The translations under genes and the position numbers were made by a program. From a virus: 20,327 nucleotides of DNA. The DNA is taken from IMG/VR virus record IMGVR_UViG_3300049215_000808, positions 1 to 20,327 of that record. One strand, written 5' to 3'. The notes under the pieces are model-generated. The model did not search any database and was not told where the DNA came from. It worked only from the letters and a program-made list of their open reading frames with translations. How positions within the stretch are numbered: position 1 is the stretch's first letter; the number at the start of each line of letters is the position of its first letter. This document shows positions 10,394 through 20,327 of this stretch, piece after piece.

Positions 10394-11236
10394 CTATTGG
10401 AACGGATGACCGTAAATGACCGTCGCCGATTTCGCGCCGGGCTTGATTACCCAAACCCCATTCGGAGTGATGCCATACACGGGGACTTTCTGACCAAAAT
10501 CTCCGGAGCCAGGTTTAGGATCGGCCCATGTGGGATGCGTGTGAATGATTGCTGTATACCCTGGACGTGCATGCCCAGAATTTTGACCGATATTTCCGAC
10601 AGCCGTGCCATGGATGCCAAGATATTCAAAATCAAAGGCGCTATATGCTATCCATAGTTGTTCCTTTGGAAACGGAATATTGAAATTAATGGGTATGCCT
10701 GCGAGCGAATGATCCTTGGCGCCTAGAATGACAATTTCGTCATACAATTTTGGATCTGCCGGCAATCCAGGAGGAGACGCGACAGGTCTGCCCATGGTCC
10801 GATCCAGAGGGAGGCCAAGATGCATGTTGAGCGCGGCACCCTCGAATCCAGATGAACCGGCTGTTGCGGCGCCCGGCTCGGGTCCAAACGTGAACTGTCC
10901 TCCACCTGATCCTGGAGGCTTATGCCAGTGATTGAATTTGGCCAGACCTGAGTCGCTATCGATCTGCAGTTGGAGAAGCAGAATCGGCGCGCGGACCAGA
11001 TCGCCTTTATCGAGAGCGCGTGCGAGAGCTTCTATGCCGCTTCGTCGATTGGCGAGACACAAAGCACCACCCGAGCAGATTTTCTCTTCAGAGCCCAACG
11101 CCTCGCGCGAAGGGACAATTCGGCCCTCGTCGTCGATGTCGGTCAGCGGCGTGCCGTCGCCGAGATATGCGTGTCCCTCGAAAAGGAACGGCAGGCCTTC
11201 GGCGTTAATGCCCTCGCCTAGGCGATACATTCGCAT
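10394..11236 (-). CDS. Protein with GGQF linker and C-terminal JAB/DUF4329-like domain (candidate effector)
   Basis: A 280-aa protein in three parts. Residues 1-100 are an unknown N-terminal domain with GHAYLGDGTPL and a hydrophobic ILLLQLQI. Residues 101-120 hold FNHWHKPPGSGGGQFTFGPE, which resembles the PxGxPDGGQW linker seen in many alphaproteobacterial phage-associated and toxin-like proteins. Residues 165-280 end in IIHTHPTWADPKPGSGDFG: His232, His234, Ser244 and Asp246 give an H-x-H...S-x-D pattern like JAB metalloproteases or DUF4329, followed by VYGITPNGVWVIKPG as in DUF4329. The spacing from the second His to the Ser is longer than in standard JAMM enzymes, so activity is uncertain. 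GGAGG lies seven bases before ATG. It may be a toxin-like effector, a peptidase or a virion accessory protein. Confidence 0.7.
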   Translation of the reverse strand: MRMYRLGEGINAEGLPFLFEGHAYLGDGTPLTDIDDEGRIVPSREALGSEEKICSGGALCLANRRSGIEALARALDKGDLVRAPILLLQLQIDSDSGLAKFNHWHKPPGSGGGQFTFGPEPGAATAGSSGFEGAALNMHLGLPLDRTMGRPVASPPGLPADPKLYDEIVILGAKDHSLAGIPINFNIPFPKEQLWIAYSAFDFEYLGIHGTAVGNIGQNSGHARPGYTAIIHTHPTWADPKPGSGDFGQKVPVYGITPNGVWVIKPGAKSATVIYGHPFQ

Positions 11237-11269: not shown

Positions 11270-11908
11270 CTATCTCCGCGAGACCTGTATGTCGGCCAGC
11301 CGCCCGTCTTCGAACACGAGCACGTTGTTCTCCGGATAGATCCAGAATTCGACCAATCCGCGTTTCCTCGATTCCCGCTCGACGACGCGATCGGGCTTGC
11401 CCCAGGCGCCGGCGAGCACCTGCGCTTGGGTCATGTGCAGAAGCGCGCCTTGCAGGTTGCGGCGCGCCACCGACGCTTTCCCGGCTTTCGGGCCGAAGAG
11501 AAAGGATGGGTAAGTCCCCGGCTCCTTCATCGGGTCGTGGTCGGCGACTTCGAATTTCAGATCCGCGGGATTGATCCTGGTGAAGCCCGACCGTCCGTCG
11601 GCGAAGGTGATGTGCATGAAGACCTCGCCGCTGTACGACATAGCATCCAGACCTTCGAACGAATCGAAGGTGAATCGGCCGCGGCCCGTGAAGCATCCTT
11701 CCGGCCCCAGCATCATCGCTTTGCTCGGGCAGACGAAGTAGTTGGAGATGCCCACCGTCCACAGCGGGCGCTCGATATACTCAGCCATCAATGCCCGGTC
11801 CTTTGCCTCCTGCTGCTGCCGCGCGATATCCTCGGGATAGGGCGGCGCCGTGCAGCCCGTCAGCAAAAGCATTGCAGCGGCAGACCAGAAGCCTCGTCCT
11901 CTACGCAC
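11270..11908 (-). CDS. Predicted lipoprotein (moron) between chaperone and tape measure genes
   Basis: A 212-aa protein, read from GTG at 11908, which has GGAGGG eight bases upstream and overlaps the end of the chaperone T frame. A lipoprotein signal follows: basic start, hydrophobic FWSAAAMLLL, and lipobox LTGC with Cys19. The mature protein begins with a short Gln/Ala-rich helix. Its C-terminus (WGKPDRVVE...GLVEFWIYPENNVLVFEDGRLADIQ) resembles the pattern of SmpA/BamE-like outer membrane lipoproteins, in which WGxPd and a final FxdGrv strand are typical. Phage lipoproteins in such positions often act at the host envelope, for instance in blocking superinfection; that is inference. It is not part of the usual chaperone/tape-measure set. 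Confidence 0.75.
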   Translation of the reverse strand: MRRGRGFWSAAAMLLLTGCTAPPYPEDIARQQQEAKDRALMAEYIERPLWTVGISNYFVCPSKAMMLGPEGCFTGRGRFTFDSFEGLDAMSYSGEVFMHITFADGRSGFTRINPADLKFEVADHDPMKEPGTYPSFLFGPKAGKASVARRNLQGALLHMTQAQVLAGAWGKPDRVVERESRKRGLVEFWIYPENNVLVFEDGRLADIQVSRR

Positions 11909-12457
11909 GCAGAAATCCCTCCGGTCCGGCCGCAGCCAACAGCTCGGCCAGGTCAGATGTTCTTGCTTTGTCCCCACCCTTATAATCGACAAGAGCCCGA
12001 ATGAGAAGATGCAAAGGCGGATTCTTTTTCCAGTAGGCGGCGAGCTCCAGATATTCGGGGAGCGTCATCTCGTCGATCTCGGCCCGGCGCCAGCCGCACG
12101 CCGTCGCGATCAGCCCGTAGATGTCGCCCCAAGGGAAGGTCTCGCCGCCCTGACTTCCCCCGATTGAGCTTCCCCCGGCTGGGGCGCTCCCGGCTTCAGG
12201 CCCGAAAGGCGCGCGACCGCCGACACCGCGACGCGAAGCTCCTCGACATCGGGCGTCAGCTCGTCGAACTGGGCGCGCGTGAAAGCGGGATCGGCGGTCG
12301 CGATCGCCGCGGTCAGTATCTCGCCCTGCGCGTCGACCTTCGCTTCGCTGTCCATGCCGAGTTGGAGGAACAGCGGCAGCACGCGCTTCAGGTCGCGAAA
12401 CTTCAATGGGGCGATCGGATAGTCCTTGCCGCCGAGTTTAATTGAATTGGCCATCAT
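11901..12457 (-). CDS. Tail assembly chaperone G-T fusion made by -1 frameshift
   Basis: The frame -1 to the short chaperone stays open from about 12198 to a TAG at 11901-11903 and encodes GGSQGGETFPWGDIYGLIATACGWRR, with its later part reading MTLPEYLELAAYW and a tail ending EGFLRA. This is a typical second chaperone (T) domain, and it has no start codon or SD of its own. From 12457 to 11901 there are 557 bases, which is 186 codons once a single base is re-read, exactly what a -1 shift needs and giving 185 aa. The likely slip site is one of two GGGGGAAG copies (12169-12176 and 12154-12161), read G GGG GAA in the zero frame. The fusion would guide tail tube assembly on the tape measure together with the short form. 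Confidence 0.85.
12110..12457 (-). CDS. Tail assembly chaperone, short form (G-like)
   Basis: A 115-aa protein at the place where lambda-type phages code gpG. It begins SIKLGGKDYPIAPLKFRDLKRVLPLF, the usual start of alphaproteobacterial phage chaperones (a GTA gp10-type family), followed by helices and a Pro/Gly-rich linker (KPGAPQPGEAQSGE). Its last 15 or so residues overlap the T-domain code and are low-information, as expected for a zero-frame tail. Two adjacent ATGs exist; the second (12454) sits five bases after GGAG and may be the true start. It is made together with the longer G-T fusion by frameshifting. Confidence 0.82.
   Translation of the reverse strand: MMANSIKLGGKDYPIAPLKFRDLKRVLPLFLQLGMDSEAKVDAQGEILTAAIATADPAFTRAQFDELTPDVEELRVAVSAVARLSGLKPGAPQPGEAQSGEVRAARPSLGATSTG
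12154..12176 (-). promoter_or_regulatory. Candidate -1 ribosomal frameshift site (two GGGGGAAG copies)
   Basis: GGGGGAAG occurs twice, 15 bases apart, on the minus strand at 12169-12176 and 12154-12161, both in the same register (G GGG GAA in the chaperone frame). Slipping back one base lets Gly-tRNA re-pair fully with GGG and moves ribosomes into the open T frame. The site is not a perfect X XXY YYZ heptamer because the A-site GAA would re-pair with GGA. Which copy is used cannot be told. Confidence 0.55.
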
Positions 12458-14006: not shown

Positions 14007-14482
14007 GACTTCAGAACCTCCGCCATTGCGCCGGACAACACACCGTGGATCGTCGGCGCAAGTTGGGCGAGCGCGGAGCGCAGGCAGGACCGGCCCGCGT
14101 AATCGACGCCTCGATCATGCGCGCGCACGGTGACTTCTTTCGGCGCCATCATTCGCCCGAAGACCGTCGATTGGCGCCGCAGAAAATCACGCACGCTTTC
14201 GGTGCCCGAGAAGCCGAATTCCTGAAAGGCGGCATAGGGCGTCACCGCCTGAACGGCGAAGCCGATCGCGTCAGCCGATGTCGAGGTCGCGACGGCAAGG
14301 CTGTCGCGCAGCTTGCCGGAGCGCGCCTGAAGGACGCCGCCCGATAGGTTGTCTTCGGCGGCCGATCGGATCTGAGCGGCCAGATCCGCGCCGGCGGCGC
14401 GAAGCGCGGCTGCCGCATCGACGGGAATGGCCGCGAGCCGCGCGCGAACCGTATCGGCGCCGTCGAGCTCGACGCCGATCAT
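14003..14482 (-). CDS. HK97 gp10-like head-tail joining protein
   Basis: The true protein is 159 aa, read from ATG at 14482, which overlaps the preceding stop (ATGA); a longer open frame upstream is not supported. It starts MIGVELDGADTVRARLAAIP and has the gp10 pattern: a long helix AAALRAAGADLAAQIRSAAEDN, then RSGKLRDSLAV, and the hallmark VTPYAAFQEFG (about residues 88-99), followed by FLRRQSTVFGRMMAP and a C-terminal helix. HK97 gp10-like proteins act at the head-tail junction or in tail completion. Both ends overlap neighbours by ATGA. Confidence 0.85.
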   Translation of the reverse strand: MIGVELDGADTVRARLAAIPVDAAAALRAAGADLAAQIRSAAEDNLSGGVLQARSGKLRDSLAVATSTSADAIGFAVQAVTPYAAFQEFGFSGTESVRDFLRRQSTVFGRMMAPKEVTVRAHDRGVDYAGRSCLRSALAQLAPTIHGVLSGAMAEVLKS

Positions 14483-15039
14483 GCGAGGTTCGCCCGCATG
14501 TAGCGCGTGATCACGCTCTGCACGAACGGGCTCACATCCTTCTGGGTGTAGGATGTGGTCGCGATGCCGCCCATACTCTCGGAGGCCTTGCCCAGCCGGT
14601 CCTTGCCGCGATAGCGCAGGCCCACCAATTCGATCACCGCCTCGGCGACATCCGCGGGCGTCGCGGCATAGCCGGCCTGATAGCTCACCGCTACATTGGC
14701 GTAGCCACGACTGAACCAATAACCGAAGAGGATGATGACATTGCCGTTCTGGACCCAGCCCGGATCGGCGACGGCAATCGAAGCCGGAATGGGGACTTCG
14801 TCGATCGCGACCGAAGTCACCGCAATGACCGGCGTATTTCTGAGATAGAGCCGCGTGCTGCCTTTGCCGTCATAGAGCTCGACATAGCTCCGAGCCAGAA
14901 TCGGATTGCCGCAAGCGGTCGTGAAGAAAGCGCTCGCGGCGGTGATGAGCCGCGTCAGCACAGAATCGTCGTTCGATTGCAGATCGCCGCCGAGATAGGC
15001 CTTCACATCGTCAATCGACACCAAGTCGCCCGCGCTCAT
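14479..15039 (-). CDS. gp6-like head-tail adaptor protein
   Basis: A 186-aa protein of the phage gp6-like connector family (PF05135). Hallmarks are LVSIDDVKAYLGG....DDSVLTRLITAASAFFTTACG at 6-44, a strand domain with YLRNTPVIAVTSVAID, then VSYQAGYAATPADVAEAVIELVGLRYR at about 118-144, and a C-terminal helix with SVITRYMR. It forms the ring below the portal to which the tail attaches. ATGA overlaps link it to both neighbours. Confidence 0.9.
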   Translation of the reverse strand: MSAGDLVSIDDVKAYLGGDLQSNDDSVLTRLITAASAFFTTACGNPILARSYVELYDGKGSTRLYLRNTPVIAVTSVAIDEVPIPASIAVADPGWVQNGNVIILFGYWFSRGYANVAVSYQAGYAATPADVAEAVIELVGLRYRGKDRLGKASESMGGIATTSYTQKDVSPFVQSVITRYMRANLA

Positions 15040-15221
15040 GCATCATCTCCGTCGATCCAAAGGATGAAGCCGCCCTTGCGGAGTAGCGGCGGCGCGGCTT
15101 CTTCGGGCACGTCGACGGTACCGTCGGGCCGGATCGGGTATTGATCGCCGCCGTAAGTCGGACCTTCCCAGGATCCGGAAGGCGCGATCAGGCGCACGAA
15201 ACCAGGGGCTGGTCGGTCCAT
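15036..15221 (-). CDS. 61-aa phage protein following the capsid gene
   Basis: A small protein beginning MDRPAPGFVRLIAPSG and reading YPIRPDGTVDVPEEAAPPLLRKGG in the middle. The pattern G-x-x-Y-x-x-x-x-D-G-x-V-x-V-P-x-x-A-x-x-L-L-x-x-G-F is seen in small proteins next to capsid and connector genes of many phages, where function is unknown. GGAG lies nine bases before ATG and the stop overlaps the adaptor start (ATGA). Without the hipBA insert it would directly follow the major capsid gene. Confidence 0.78.
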   Translation of the reverse strand: MDRPAPGFVRLIAPSGSWEGPTYGGDQYPIRPDGTVDVPEEAAPPLLRKGGFILWIDGDDA

Positions 15222-15244
15222 GGTATGAAACTCCGATGTCGTTT

Positions 15245-15289
15245 TAGGCGGAAATACGCCTATCCCGGAATTAGGCGAATTTCCGCCTA
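15245..15289 (+). promoter_or_regulatory. Twin palindromic operators upstream of hipB-like gene
   Basis: Two 18-bp sites, TAGGCGGAAATACGCCTA at 15245-15262 and TAGGCGAATTTCCGCCTA at 15272-15289, share the half sites TAGGCG-N6-CGCCTA. The second is the reverse complement of the first except for one base in the spacer. Centres lie 27 bp apart, and the second touches the AGGAGG of the regulator gene. Paired palindromes in front of a HipB-type gene are where the antitoxin normally represses its own operon. The binding itself is inference. Confidence 0.82.
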
Positions 15290-15298
15290 GGAGGGATC

Positions 15299-15538
15299 AT
15301 GGCGATCCGAAGCGAGGAAAATCTCGGGCATGCCCTGCGCCGGCATCGATTGGCGAAGGGGCTCAACCAAACCGAGTTGGGTCAGAAAGCCCATCTCCGT
15401 CAGCGCACCGTGTCCGACATAGAGCAAGGCAAGGGCGGAACGCTTGCATCCTTATCTGCCCTTCTGACCGCCATGGGCCTCGAGGTCACCGTCGCCGCGC
15501 GTGAGGACCGGGACATCGAACCCGACCGCTACCTATGA
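15299..15538 (+). CDS. HipB-like Xre-family antitoxin/repressor
   Basis: A 79-aa helix-turn-helix protein on the plus strand, opposite to the capsid genes. Residues 9-62 form the Xre domain: LGHALRRHRLAKGLNQTELGQKAHLRQRTVSDIEQGKGGTLASLSALLTAMGLEV, with the recognition region around RQRTVSDIEQG. The final LEVTVAAREDRD is typical of HipB proteins. AGGAGG lies four bases before ATG and overlaps the second operator. Its stop overlaps the ATG of the broken hipA (ATGA), the usual hipBA coupling. The gene looks intact, so it may still bind its operators even though the toxin is broken. It probably came in as a toxin-antitoxin cargo. Confidence 0.85.
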   Translation: MAIRSEENLGHALRRHRLAKGLNQTELGQKAHLRQRTVSDIEQGKGGTLASLSALLTAMGLEVTVAAREDRDIEPDRYL

Positions 15539-15947
15539 GCCGACGAGGCTCTTGGCCGCTCCCGACGGCCACGCCAAAAATTTTTCGATCTTCTTGAGAT
15601 CAGGCGGATTTCGCTCGACTCCGCTCTACGACGTCATGTCCTCTGCGCCCTACGAGGCGCGCCAATCCGCTTTCCACAAAAGGAAGGTCCGGCTGGCAAT
15701 GGCGGTCGGCAGGAAGCGGCATTACAAGATCGATGAGATCTTGGCGCGCCATTGGCAAGAGACGGCGGACGCCGCCCGGCTCCCGAGGACCATGTGCGCC
15801 CGTGTCATCGAAGAGATCCAGGATACCGTCGATTCGGCGACCGACTCTGTCGCCGGGCAATTGCCGTCCGGGTTCCCAGAGAAGATATACGACATGATTC
15901 GAGCCGCCATCCGCTCCCGGACCAGCAGGCTCGAATCCGTCGACTGA
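15535..15947 (+). pseudogene. hipA: hipA remnant with large internal deletion
   Basis: The original ATG at 15535 reads MSRRGS, then meets a different frame and soon stops (after 20 codons). From about 15550 another frame encodes LLAAPDGHAKNFSIFL and TPLYDVMSSAPY, the catalytic loop and metal-binding region of HipA kinases (matching Asp309 and Asp332 of the E. coli enzyme), through to an apparently natural C-terminus. The N-terminal lobe, ATP-binding loop and autophosphorylated serine are gone, roughly the first 300 residues. A GTG-started frame at 15501 could express the fragment, but it lies inside hipB without a good SD. It should have no kinase activity. It ends five bases from the convergent capsid stop. 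Confidence 0.82.
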
Positions 15948-15952
15948 TCTCC

Positions 15953-17440
15953 TCACCCGTTCGCGATGTTGCCGATGACGCCCATGGCGAAGGGCGCGTA
16001 GACGGCCAGCACTTCTTCGGCATAGACGCCGAACTCGTAGGATCGGGTCTTGAGCGGCCAGTCCATCCGATAATAGTCGCGACGGGTCTTCACCTCGGCG
16101 ACATTCGGCACGTTGGAGGATTGGTACTGCGCCGGCAGATTCTCCGACCAGCCGATGATCGTGCCGGGCGGCACGAAGGGATGAATTTTGACGGGGATCT
16201 TGTAACCGCCGTCGAGCGCGAACGGGTTATAGTAATATTCGACGACGCCGTTGGCGACGATCGCGAAGGGATCCTTGCCGTCGGTGTTGAAGCGCAGCAA
16301 CGGCGCCGAGGCGCTCGACAGAACTTTCGATGTGATGTTCCGCTGCTCCTGGCTGTTGACGTAGAGCACCGTCGGGCTCACCTCGAACAAATCCCACATC
16401 TTCTGCAGCATCAGATCGATCTCGTTGACCGAGCCGCGGCCGGATGCCGAGAGCGGCGTGCCCGTGCCCGCCGTGCCGGTCGCAAGGTAATTTACATAGG
16501 CGCCCGATCCGGCCTTGAGCGCCGAGGTCAAGAGGCCATCGAAAGCCAAGCCCGGATTGGCGGAGTAATCGGCAGCGATCGCAGAGGCGGCCTGGGTCGA
16601 GTTCGCGAGCGGCGCCGCGAACGCCGCGCTGCTGATCGTCGTGATCGCCTGAAGCTTCTCCGATCCGACCGCGCCCACGAACCAGGCATAGCCGACCGCG
16701 CCGGTGACCGGCGTCACCGAAGCGAACAGGGTCTGACCGAGCGTCACGGCTTGCGTCGCGTTGGCCGACGGCGCGGACGCACCGCCATTCACCGCGAAGC
16801 TTGCGCCATCGGCGCCGGTCACGGATTTGGTCGTGGCGATCCCACCCGAAACACTGGAGTTGCGATAACCCTCATAGGTGAGCGCCACGGCAATGACCGA
16901 GTAGGTTGCCGCCGGCAGCGTCGCGCCCGATCCGCTTGCCGACAGCGTGGGTGTCGGCGCGGTGCCGAGCTGCAGCGATCCGTTGCCGCCGAGCAGCGCG
17001 TTCTCCTCCTTCAGCATCATCTTCTGCAGTAGACGCATGGTGGCAGTGGCCTGCACATCCTCGAAGCCTTGCGCGGCGGACACGGCTTCGAAGGTCACCG
17101 AATCCTCTTCGCCGATGGTGGCGAAGGACGCCGAGCGGGTGGAGGTGCTATAGCTCATCTTTCCGGAGCGCTGGCCTTCCGGCACCCATCCGATCGCGTC
17201 CCAGCCGGAGCCGATGATCGCATTCACCTGCCGCCAATTCGTCGCGGTGCCGGTGCCGCCGCCGACGCGCGGCAGCGCATTGCGAATCGGCGTCGCGGCC
17301 GGATAGAGATTCTTCGCCGAGGGCTGCAGGTCATAGGCGAGCAGGCCGCTGGCGGTCGTGATGGTCTTGGCGAGCGTCTCGCCGTTGGCCAGCGATTCCT
17401 TGATCAACGCCAGCGTATCGTCGGTCACATTTCCATTCAT
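15953..17440 (-). CDS. Major capsid protein with probable Ig/FN3-like insert
   Basis: About 495 aa from ATG at 17440, chosen because GGAG lies nine bases upstream; in-frame starts further out (TTG 17470, ATG 17458 and 17455) have weaker sites. The N-terminal part (TASGLLAYDLQPSAKNLYPAATPIRNALPRV) and the C-terminal part (FVPPGTIIGWSENLPAQYQ...VYAEEVLAVYAPFAMGVIGNI) fit an HK97-fold capsid protein. Between them, residues about 162-278 are Ser/Thr/Ala/Gly-rich with TYSVIAVALTYEGYRNSSVS and PVTGAVGYAWFVGA, a pattern like FN3/Ig-type domains, flanked by capsid-like sequence. The N-terminal stretch before the fold is too short for a full scaffold domain, which may instead sit on the protease. Confidence 0.85.
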   Translation of the reverse strand: MNGNVTDDTLALIKESLANGETLAKTITTASGLLAYDLQPSAKNLYPAATPIRNALPRVGGGTGTATNWRQVNAIIGSGWDAIGWVPEGQRSGKMSYSTSTRSASFATIGEEDSVTFEAVSAAQGFEDVQATATMRLLQKMMLKEENALLGGNGSLQLGTAPTPTLSASGSGATLPAATYSVIAVALTYEGYRNSSVSGGIATTKSVTGADGASFAVNGGASAPSANATQAVTLGQTLFASVTPVTGAVGYAWFVGAVGSEKLQAITTISSAAFAAPLANSTQAASAIAADYSANPGLAFDGLLTSALKAGSGAYVNYLATGTAGTGTPLSASGRGSVNEIDLMLQKMWDLFEVSPTVLYVNSQEQRNITSKVLSSASAPLLRFNTDGKDPFAIVANGVVEYYYNPFALDGGYKIPVKIHPFVPPGTIIGWSENLPAQYQSSNVPNVAEVKTRRDYYRMDWPLKTRSYEFGVYAEEVLAVYAPFAMGVIGNIANG

Positions 17441-17540
17441 TCGGATAAGCTCCATCATGTCCTTGCCCAAGGGCGCGAGGGGACATTGCCGGCGCGAGGG
17501 GCGGACCGCGCCGGGATTTCTCGTGCAGTGATGCCGAAGA

Positions 17541-17562: not shown

Positions 17563-18426
17563 TCAGCGGTTGGCGATCTTCTCGATCTGCGCCAGGCTCA
17601 GCGGGCGCCGCAGCGCCCGTTTGGTGAGCTCGATCGGGTCGTTGGTCGGCGTTTCGCGCGCAAAGGCGGCGGAAAGCGAATCCGCCGCCTTGTCGATCGG
17701 CATTGCGCGGAGCGCGGCGCGCCGTTCCGCCGGTTTGGCGGCGAGCGTCTTCACCAGAAGATCGCGTTCGGCTTCGAGCTCGGCGATTCGCAATCTGGCA
17801 GCGCCGAGCTCGCCCGCGAGCTTGGCGAGATTGCGCGGGCGATGCATCTTGTCGGTGTCATCCTGCCCGCCGTCGGCCTCGTCATCATCGTCGTCGTCAT
17901 CGCCGCAAGCGGCGCCGAGCGCGGCGGCGCGATCGTGGATTTCCTGGATCAGCGCCAGATCGGCTTGCGAATTGCGCGCGCCGATCTTCTCGAGATCCTT
18001 GCATTCATCGGATTTGTACATCGTGAACACTGCCTCCGGATTGGCTGGACGATCGACCAGGCTGATCTCGCTCAGCCTCAGGCCGGTGATGACATGCTTC
18101 TCCGTCTCGTCGCGGGACGTCACCTTGCCGCCGATCGAGAAGCCCTTGTAGACGCCCTGGACCACCTTCTCCCAAGCGGTCGGATCGACGATCTTGGCGC
18201 CGAGGAACAGACCCTTGCCGTCGATCTGCGCCTTGGTTGCGACGCCCACGGCCGAGGGTTGATGCATCTCGCGGATATTGGCGAAGCGCATATAGTCGGG
18301 CAGCGCCGCCTCGAGCGCCTCGCGCTTCACGATCTCGCCCTGGCTGTCCAGCGCCTCCGTGGAGGCATAGCCGAACACGAGCTGCTCGGCCTCGTCGATC
18401 TTGGTGATTTCGGCATAGAGCCGCAT
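17563..18426 (-). CDS. XkdF-like prohead protease with C-terminal scaffold-like region
   Basis: A 287-aa protein. Residues 1-137 match the XkdF-like serine protease family: LVFGYASTEALDSQGEIV, MRFANIREMHQPSAVG with candidate catalytic His55, DPTAWEKVVQGVYKGFSIGGKV with candidate Ser97, and LSEISLVDRPANPEA. Then comes an acidic linker with seven Asp in a row (176-182) and, from about 198, a coiled-coil region (LAKLAGELGAARLRIAELEAERDLLVKTLA) and a basic C-terminal segment. This second half looks like a scaffold fused to the protease, as in other phages where the scaffold is removed during maturation. AGGAG lies seven bases before ATG and overlaps the portal stop region. Confidence 0.85.
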   Translation of the reverse strand: MRLYAEITKIDEAEQLVFGYASTEALDSQGEIVKREALEAALPDYMRFANIREMHQPSAVGVATKAQIDGKGLFLGAKIVDPTAWEKVVQGVYKGFSIGGKVTSRDETEKHVITGLRLSEISLVDRPANPEAVFTMYKSDECKDLEKIGARNSQADLALIQEIHDRAAALGAACGDDDDDDDEADGGQDDTDKMHRPRNLAKLAGELGAARLRIAELEAERDLLVKTLAAKPAERRAALRAMPIDKAADSLSAAFARETPTNDPIELTKRALRRPLSLAQIEKIANR

Positions 18427-18430
18427 CGCG

Positions 18431-19804
18431 TCACTCCTGTTGGGATGGTTGCTGCCGATTTGGTGTTTGTTGGGCGCCGGCGAGCACGCTCGAAAGCGTG
18501 ACCGCGCCGCCGCCGGTGTAGATGAGCGGCGTGTCGCCGCCTTCGATCGGATCGAGCCCGGATTCGGCCCGCGCCTCGTTGATGGTCTTCAGGCCTGCGC
18601 GCAGCTTCATGTCCGTGAGCTGTGCTTGCTTCAGCGGATCGACCGCTTCCTCGTCGGCCCATTCGAATTCGAGATCGTCCCAGCCGAAATCCTCTTCGAT
18701 GACGCGATCGATCAAATCCTTGACCCAGAGCATGATCGGACCGAGGCCCTCCGACAGCGCCATCTCCTGCGCATTGTCGGCGGTCGCGCGGTTCATCTGT
18801 CGCGTGAAGGGCGCGGCCGACGCGGAGAACGCGTAGCAGACGACCCGCGCCAGCCATTCGTCGAAATCATCTTTCAGCGGCGCCTCGCGCGTCGCCTGAT
18901 AGCGAAAGTCGGCCGGCACGAAGCGCGCATGGCGTCGCTCGGCGATGTTGCCCGCCATGATCGTGTCCCAATATTCCTGGAACTTGCGGATCTGCTCCAT
19001 CGTCCAGCCCTGCGGCACGCCGACCAGCGCCTCGGGCATGTTGCCCTCGGTGAAATATTGCAGCTGCACCTGCTGGCGACGCAGCGCAATGTTGACGGTG
19101 GTCACGATCTGCTCGACCGGCGAGAAGCCGTAGACCTTGGCCGTGCGCGGATTGCGCGGCAGATAGAGCAGCTCGTCGCGCGAGAAGTCGGCCTTGGGCA
19201 CGCCGTGCAGTATCTGCTGATAGGCCGGATCCGGCGGCTCTGGCGCGCGGCCTTCATCGTCGATCAGCACCTTGATCGTCGCGCCGTCGACCGGCTCCAG
19301 CGCGACCAGCGCGCCGCCCGCGTTCCGCGCCCGATAGAGCGTCGGCGCATCGATGACGAACAGATCCTCGAGCAGCATGCGGAGCCACGGGCCCCAGCGA
19401 TGCACGCCGTCCGGCTTGCGGAAGAATGTCTTCAGGGCCTTGATTCGCGGATCCGCATTTCCGGGCGACTGACGAGCGGGCACTTCGCCCTGCGTCGGCC
19501 TGGGCCGGATGTTCCAGCGCAGCCGCTCGACCTGATCCTTGCGAGTCTCGATGACGAGCCGCAGCAGATCCCAGCTGTCGGCCAGCGCCCGCATTTGCGC
19601 GAAGGAGATCCCCTCCTCGCCGCGCGGCCGGAACTGGATGTTGAGGCCGGTCAGATAATCGAACTGGCGCGGCGCCGACAGCTCAGGCATCACGGGCTCG
19701 AGCGGTTGCAGCGGGCCGAACCAATTGTCGGGCGCCACGCCGCGGATGGCGTAGCGCATGCCGACGGCGAGCCGGCCGAAAAAGCCGGGCTCCAGCGCCG
19801 TCAT
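18431..19804 (-). CDS. Portal protein
   Basis: About 457 aa from ATG at 19804, which follows a GGGGG tract 12 bases upstream; an in-frame ATG at 19837 would overlap the preceding gene by 14 bases and has a weaker site. The protein has portal features: FAQMRALADSWDLLRLVIETRKDQVERLRWNI at the start of the core, WLRMLLEDLFVIDAPTLYRAR, FSRDELLYLPRNPRTAKVYGFSPVEQIV, and a C-terminal QAQLTDMKLRAGLKTINEARAESGLDPIEGGD, which is usual for the clip and stem of many portals. It forms the 12-subunit ring through which DNA enters and leaves the head. The terminase genes expected upstream are outside the window. Confidence 0.92.
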   Translation of the reverse strand: MTALEPGFFGRLAVGMRYAIRGVAPDNWFGPLQPLEPVMPELSAPRQFDYLTGLNIQFRPRGEEGISFAQMRALADSWDLLRLVIETRKDQVERLRWNIRPRPTQGEVPARQSPGNADPRIKALKTFFRKPDGVHRWGPWLRMLLEDLFVIDAPTLYRARNAGGALVALEPVDGATIKVLIDDEGRAPEPPDPAYQQILHGVPKADFSRDELLYLPRNPRTAKVYGFSPVEQIVTTVNIALRRQQVQLQYFTEGNMPEALVGVPQGWTMEQIRKFQEYWDTIMAGNIAERRHARFVPADFRYQATREAPLKDDFDEWLARVVCYAFSASAAPFTRQMNRATADNAQEMALSEGLGPIMLWVKDLIDRVIEEDFGWDDLEFEWADEEAVDPLKQAQLTDMKLRAGLKTINEARAESGLDPIEGGDTPLIYTGGGAVTLSSVLAGAQQTPNRQQPSQQE

Positions 19805-19823
19805 TCGTCCGTCAGACCCCCTG

Positions 19824-20327
19824 TTAGTTGGCGGCATTGGGCAAGCTCGTCGCGTTGAAGAAGGAATGGATCTCGATCATGCGGCCCGCGGCCGTCCTGC
19901 AGGTGAAGCCCAGCAGATAGCGGCCTGGCGGCGGCCGCCCGATCGCCTGCACGGCGACCGTGCCGATCAGCGCGGCAGTGCCGTCGATCGCGCTCCCATA
20001 GTTCGGCTGGCTCGCCTCGACCGGATAGAAGAGAAGCGCGAGGCTCGCGGCGACCAGCGTGTCGCCGGGATCGAGCGCGGGGCCGAGATCGATGCCGAAA
20101 ATCTCGTCGGCATCGATCGAGAGCGGCGGGAAATCGCGCCCGGCATAGCCCGAGACATGGATCGGTACGATCGTGCGAAGCGGCGTCATGACAGGTGACC
20201 CCGAAGGCGGTGGCGGTGGTGGAGGCGGCGGCGGGCTCGTTCCGCCGGCGCCGGCGCCCAGCCCCGCGAGCAGCAGCGACTGCGCCCCGCCAGCGCCCAG
20301 CGCGTCGGTGATCGGCCACAGCGACAT
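19824..20327 (-). CDS. Beta-rich small phage protein with poly-proline linker (fibre-tail adaptor-like)
   Basis: A 167-aa frame whose ATG is the last codon of the window, so it may begin further out. Residues 1-30 are Gly/Ala/Leu-rich, followed by ten prolines in a row, then a beta-rich domain from MTPLRTIVPI (about residue 47) to the end: FGIDLGPALDPGDTLVAAS and GRYLLGFTCRTAAGRMIEIHSFFNAT. That strand order recalls small phage proteins called fibre-tail adaptors, but the match is weak. ATG at 20189 is a possible alternative start, with a GGGG tract nine bases upstream. It lies directly before the portal gene with its stop near the portal start. Confidence 0.55.
   Translation of the reverse strand: MSLWPITDALGAGGAQSLLLAGLGAGAGGTSPPPPPPPPPPSGSPVMTPLRTIVPIHVSGYAGRDFPPLSIDADEIFGIDLGPALDPGDTLVAASLALLFYPVEASQPNYGSAIDGTAALIGTVAVQAIGRPPPGRYLLGFTCRTAAGRMIEIHSFFNATSLPNAAN

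Follow-up and report, generated by a model that had tools for sequence, protein, structure and literature searches.

A hipBA remnant antisense to the virion operon of an uncultivated phage

The hipBA operon of Escherichia coli encodes a Ser/Thr kinase, HipA, and an Xre antitoxin, HipB. E. coli HipB binds cooperatively to four sites with the consensus TATCCN8GGATA (PMC3376134, PMC3920265), and the hipBA promoters of Caulobacter carry similar inverted repeats at regular spacing (PMC7029023). Among phages, the gut 'Gratiaviridae' encode a HipA-family kinase and an AAA ATPase between the portal and major capsid genes, which have been proposed as immunity genes (PMC8008677), and P2 and P4 carry hotspots of antiviral cargo between conserved phage genes (PMC9122126). 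The kind of element that we describe here is already known. Our literature search returned no description of a cargo site at the capsid/connector junction, of antisense hipBA there or of its decayed state.

Here we analyse a stretch of 20,327 bases (the window), the whole IMG/VR record of an uncultivated virus, and present the anatomy of a hipBA locus within it, the segment missing from this locus, its intact siblings, the empty site and a second cargo type at the same junction. The locus resembles E. coli hipBA in its hipB–hipA order, ATGA overlap, Xre-type HipB, 18-bp palindromes at 27 bp (a spacing shared with L117, an E. coli-type locus) and HipA_C domain with DGHAKN; it differs in the loss of the first ~300 HipA residues, in having two operators rather than four, in its TAGGCG/CGCCTA operator arms and in lying antisense in a phage head operon. 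The hipBA modules of sibling phages (L019, L029, L034/L035 and L116) share its insertion point, strand, gene order and operator geometry, but have an intact HipA of 430 aa (35–41% identical to the remnant) and four operators or near-operators, with TATACG arms. The 'Gratiaviridae' likewise hold HipA-family kinase/ATPase accessory genes within the head gene cluster, yet are Bacteroidetes phages with a distant HipA-like kinase, no reported hipB partner and another junction. As at the P2/P4 hotspots, a small variable locus between two conserved flanking genes accommodates different defence systems, although the present site lies inside the virion operon and has few cargo types so far.

Anatomy of the locus

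The virion operon runs on the minus strand through portal, S78 protease, major capsid, 61-aa, connector, HK97-gp10-like and tail genes. The capsid protein matches the 'major capsid protein' gp6 of Mufasa8 and the 'major head protein' of MMB025 (tblastn) and belongs to phrog_13692, a family without a name. Capsid relatives found in genomes are for the most part from Alphaproteobacteria, and the window phage is probably of temperate type and of that class, the host group being judged from distant capsid relatives. Two adjacent minus-strand genes among the tail genes (10394-11236 and 11270-11992) encode proteins of 280 and 240 aa, the second lipoprotein-like; neither matches Pfam or PHROG, and they are possible further cargo in the tail region. 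At the head genes, the sole sizeable interruption of gene order is at 15245-15947 on the plus strand, a region with no nucleotide match in isolated phage genomes. The features of the locus and its surroundings are:

14479-15039, minus strand: head–tail connector/head completion protein (PF24163, PF05135; phrog_442)
15036-15221, minus strand: 61-aa gene, the next virion-strand gene past the cargo
15245-15262, palindromic: operator distal to hipB, TAGGCG-GAAATA-CGCCTA, ending 23 bp short of where the 61-aa gene starts
15272-15289, palindromic: operator proximal to hipB, TAGGCG-AATTTC-CGCCTA
15299-15538, plus strand: hipB-like antitoxin/repressor gene, 79 aa, with helix–turn–helix and C-terminal tail intact on alignment with HipBs of intact hipBA modules
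15535-15546, plus strand: hipA 5' stub of no more than ~4 codons, its ATG coupled to the hipB stop
15547-15947, plus strand: HipA C-terminal remnant, ~130 codons that run from the catalytic loop to the natural stop in a frame other than that of the hipA start
15953-17470, minus strand: major capsid protein, the gene before the cargo in the direction of the virion operon; it lies between the S78 prohead protease and connector genes
17563-18426, minus strand: S78 prohead protease
18431-19837, minus strand: portal

These coordinates and strands agree with the placement given in an earlier sequence-only reading, on the opposite strand between the capsid gene and the 61-aa gene. The hipA and capsid stops converge only 5 bp apart, so the remnant takes up the entire junction. 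A scan of 14900-16100 for sigma-70 promoters and terminators found none, with the proviso that alphaproteobacterial promoters may not fit the sigma-70 consensus.

As in hipBA operons, an Xre/Cro-type helix–turn–helix antitoxin gene comes first. Its product exceeds the Pfam cut-offs for HTH_31 (33.7 bits, cut-off 27) and HTH_3 (30.7 bits, cut-off 23), and with its 79 aa and retained tail it is the intact HipB-like gene that had been claimed; alignment also shows the conserved RQxTxSxxExG helix in place, at 35–45% identity to other HipBs. The hipA ATG at 15535 overlaps the hipB stop, but the frame that it opens closes after 20 codons, and HipA_C occupies the frame of 15537, so that both the coupled start and the catalytic C-terminal region in another frame are as the sequence-only reading described them. 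The remnant covers positions 131–211 of the 213-position profile PF07804 (57.4 bits, cut-off 30.5) and aligns with residues 307–427 of E. coli HipA, a stretch that contains both the DGHAKN catalytic loop and, farther on, the YD motif; no stop interrupts its 130+ codons, and DGHAKN and PLYDV are retained.

Alignment with intact hipA relatives (TTCTGGCTC) places the jump at about 15538-15547, in the Trp codon preceding LLAAPDGHAKN. The same Trp is residue 301 in the intact HipA of the sibling L019, and about 300 codons, or ~0.9 kb and some two thirds of the toxin, are therefore absent from the window hipA, which gives ends to the internal deletion of most of the toxin that had been proposed. The loss takes in the Couple_hipA domain at the N terminus and HipA_C up to profile position 130, with the ATP-binding half, and so nearly everything before the catalytic loop. 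With a gap of this size no kinase can be made, and a one-base sequencing error is excluded as its cause, as a single-base correction would restore no kinase. The full-length kinase, with Couple_hipA and complete HipA_C, is present in the intact siblings and missing here; since only HipA_C 131–211 is left, the locus is a remnant and not a functional hipBA module.

Two other identities were considered for the locus and rejected. A tripartite HipBST system would bring hipS and hipT, and here no further ORF lies between hipB and HipA_C, and the remnant aligns with HipA rather than HipT. An active mini-HipA would have no ATP-binding part, and the only in-frame start for HipA_C is a GTG inside hipB.

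The same junction in related phages

Searching viral contigs with the capsid protein returned 523 relatives, the best 80 of which were examined. In the 36 of these 80 with 81–95% capsid identity, the capsid/connector gap is mostly empty, at about 20–150 bp. L002, the closest among the best 80 (95% capsid identity), has a 61-aa gene 92% identical to that of the window, no cargo and a capsid/61-aa gap of ~50 bp. This empty gap (L002:6247-6299) holds what looks by eye like a terminator, a GC-rich inverted repeat followed by TTT, which in the window is replaced by the cargo.

Intact antisense hipBA occupies exactly the same junction in four of the 36 (L019, L029, L034 and L035) and in L116, which was found later. 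The sibling hipA genes encode 430 aa with complete HipA_C and Couple_hipA, and their product matches E. coli HipA over nearly its full length (E 7e-97). A comparison with related phages had been suggested by the sequence-only reading, and full-length hipA is what it turns up at this junction. In the window, as in all hipBA siblings, the module ends where the capsid gene ends, hipA stop against capsid stop, and its operators directly border the ribosome-binding region of the next virion gene.

A different pair of genes lies at the junction in L013 (5521-7306), on the sense strand, and encodes an AbiLi-like AAA ATPase (161 bits) and a DUF3226/PDC-M38B (TOPRIM-like) protein; going by these domain matches, it is a second cargo type, AbiL-like and defence-like. 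The more distant L098 has an extra ORF of 171 aa there, which reads like a candidate HNH homing endonuclease. Empty, hipBA and AbiL-like states at one junction make this an accessory cargo site within the virion operon, mostly of toxin–antitoxin or defence type, and the window module is present or absent among close relatives in the manner of a moron at a variable site. No hipA was found in eight genomes with related capsids.

The hipBA of the window may have arrived separately from that of its siblings. The HipA remnant is 35–41% identical to sibling HipAs and up to 49–51% identical to bacterial HipAs, and searches of viral contigs with the window HipB and HipA_C returned distant relatives only. 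We found no relative with the same deletion and no intact copy of the window's hipBA lineage, the best HipA_C identity being 49–51%. A tree sets the remnant apart from the sibling HipAs, with a single common clade not rejected (p-AU 0.188); separate acquisitions are thus possible.

Operator pairs with and without hip genes

Both window operators are perfect 18-bp palindromes of the form TAGGCG-N6-CGCCTA, 27 bp apart, and so deserve the description of intact-looking that they had been given. The 20-kb window has no other zero-mismatch site, and the single extra site, with 2 mismatches at 12206, is within chance. Regularly spaced palindromic operators thus lie upstream, as at other hipBA loci. 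Intact sibling modules have two to four TATACG-N6-CGTATA sites in 27-bp steps, and chromosomal hipBA promoters share the geometry (18 bp, 6-6-6, 27-bp step) with them and with the window; L117, a viral hipBA with TATCC arms, likewise has the 27-bp step. The window and sibling geometry also agrees with the published HipB consensus. Because the 27-bp geometry is that of other hipBA loci, the window sites would be HipB operators with a different recognition arm. No TAGGCG pair occurs in 385 alphaproteobacterial genomes, and hence no host hip operon was found.

The same arrangement recurs in viral contigs away from hip genes. For the 27-bp spacing, the TAGGCG pair gave 10 exact matches, none with hipB or hipA within 2.5 kb, and the TATACG pair gave 55, with hipBA adjoining in only 5. 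The scan was controlled by one arm-scramble and one spacing control: the scrambled-arm pair has 0 matches, and TATACG arms at 31 other spacings (N10–N40) have 6. Five of these six are at twice 27 bp, four on known sibling hipBA contigs and one (L210) at a hipB-like ORF; the remaining match has a 35-bp step and is near an HTH ORF. The hip-less pairs (L146–L209) fall into 31 unrelated flank contexts, mostly intergenic gaps, and 17 of 60 sites overlap an ORF of at least 100 aa, compared with 46.5 expected at random positions. Over their full length, the viral records behind the 31 contexts (up to 322 kb, and possibly fragments) contain no HipA_C and one weak HipB-like match, whereas both HipA_C and HipB were detected in the hip-positive control L180.

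Among the 658 alpha- and gammaproteobacterial genomes sampled, there are three exact TATACG pairs, each at a hipB. L212 and L214 have hipA as well, and L213 has HipB without hipA within the 2.7 kb examined; in this gammaproteobacterial locus (hipB at 1147-1449), a further HTH gene lies about 670 bp downstream. The exact 27-bp phasing and the link to hipB in bacteria argue for sites that bind protein as DNA rather than for an RNA structure. On the evidence of sequence, many viruses carry HipB-type operator pairs without a hipBA module, for which a decoy, a docking site and a host-controlled phage promoter are candidate roles.

Some hip-less pairs lie near RNA genes. A pair is within 250 bp of a tRNA or tmRNA at 14 of 59 sites (5.9 expected), an excess that is inflated by related loci and serves as a lead only. 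In L164, L171 and L174–L176 the pair lies within a permuted two-piece tmRNA gene, between the mature pieces, and in L146–L148, L150, L152 and L154 a TAGGCG pair is 10–11 bp upstream of a phage tRNA-Thr gene.

Fate of the toxin-less module

We propose, with a probability of roughly 0.68, that the window carries hipBA cargo at a phage accessory site, decayed by a recent toxin deletion that left HipB without an essential job. A hipBA module presumably entered the accessory-gene (moron) site between the capsid and connector genes of a temperate-type phage on the opposite strand, as in the sibling phages. An internal deletion of about 0.9 kb would then have brought the start of hipA up against the last third of the gene in a different frame, removing the kinase and sparing HipB and the two HipB-type operators. 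Expression in the prophage would start at the module's own autorepressed promoter, and late transcription of the virion genes would run through the module in antisense. HipB probably continues to be produced and to bind both operators; having no essential job, it may have persisted beyond the toxin because the deletion happened recently. A recent deletion was one of two options offered by the sequence-only reading, and it stands as the simpler of them and the simplest reading overall, on indirect grounds: the 130+ open codons and the intact state of hipB, its tail and the operators.

The main rival to recent neutral loss is retention of HipB by selection, as an antitoxin-only protein or repressor that neutralizes the HipA of the host or of rival prophages (anti-addiction or counter-defence) or represses host hip operators, with the toxin dispensable or costly. 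The survival of hipB and both operators beside a lost toxin fits this explanation, as do the retained C-terminal tail and RQxTxSxxExG helix, the solitary HipB with an operator pair in one bacterial genome (L213) and the recurrence of hip-less operator pairs across unrelated viruses. Yet it concerns one sequence, its TAGGCG pair is absent from the 385 alphaproteobacterial genomes, and 35–45% identity to other HipBs together with TAGGCG rather than TATACG arms makes cross-neutralization doubtful; we hold selected retention to be possible, at rather long odds. The hip-less pairs also suggest that tandem operators in phages, alone or with a toxin-less HipB, could be a decoy or docking element that holds host HipB–HipA or titrates HipB, countering hip toxin–antitoxin systems, with the window as a derived or intermediate form; this we consider unlikely.

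Control of the virion operon by HipB, bound at 15245-15289 and blocking or timing transcription into the 61-aa gene and connector, is highly improbable. The operators do lie 23–68 bp upstream of the 61-aa start, in the path of late transcription, but siblings with intact hipBA place theirs alike, so their position was brought in by the cargo and does not speak for recruitment; moreover, empty-site relatives manage without operators and the phage has no other. The suggestion in the sequence-only reading that HipB may have been retained for an action on the phage operon finds no support, and as no other operator-like site in the 20 kb rises above chance, we reject action of HipB elsewhere in the phage. 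We also attach very little probability to an assembly artefact, in which strains that have the toxin segment and strains that lack it were collapsed into one metagenome contig. The record is 20 kb long and comes from an uncultivated virus, and related phages vary at exactly this place, but the junction is clean, both cargo flanks are intact and a mis-join would require the hipA start to be homologous to the Trp codon region, of which nothing is apparent.

With recent loss of the toxin as the preferred reading, the locus offers a cargo site for toxin–antitoxin and defence-like genes within a virion operon, in which empty, intact and decayed states stand side by side. Such a series allows the loss of a toxin with retention of its antitoxin to be posed as a question of neutral decay versus selection. 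The operator pairs of viruses that lack hip genes raise a further, testable question, namely whether phages use the DNA sites of host HipBA to exploit or disarm it.
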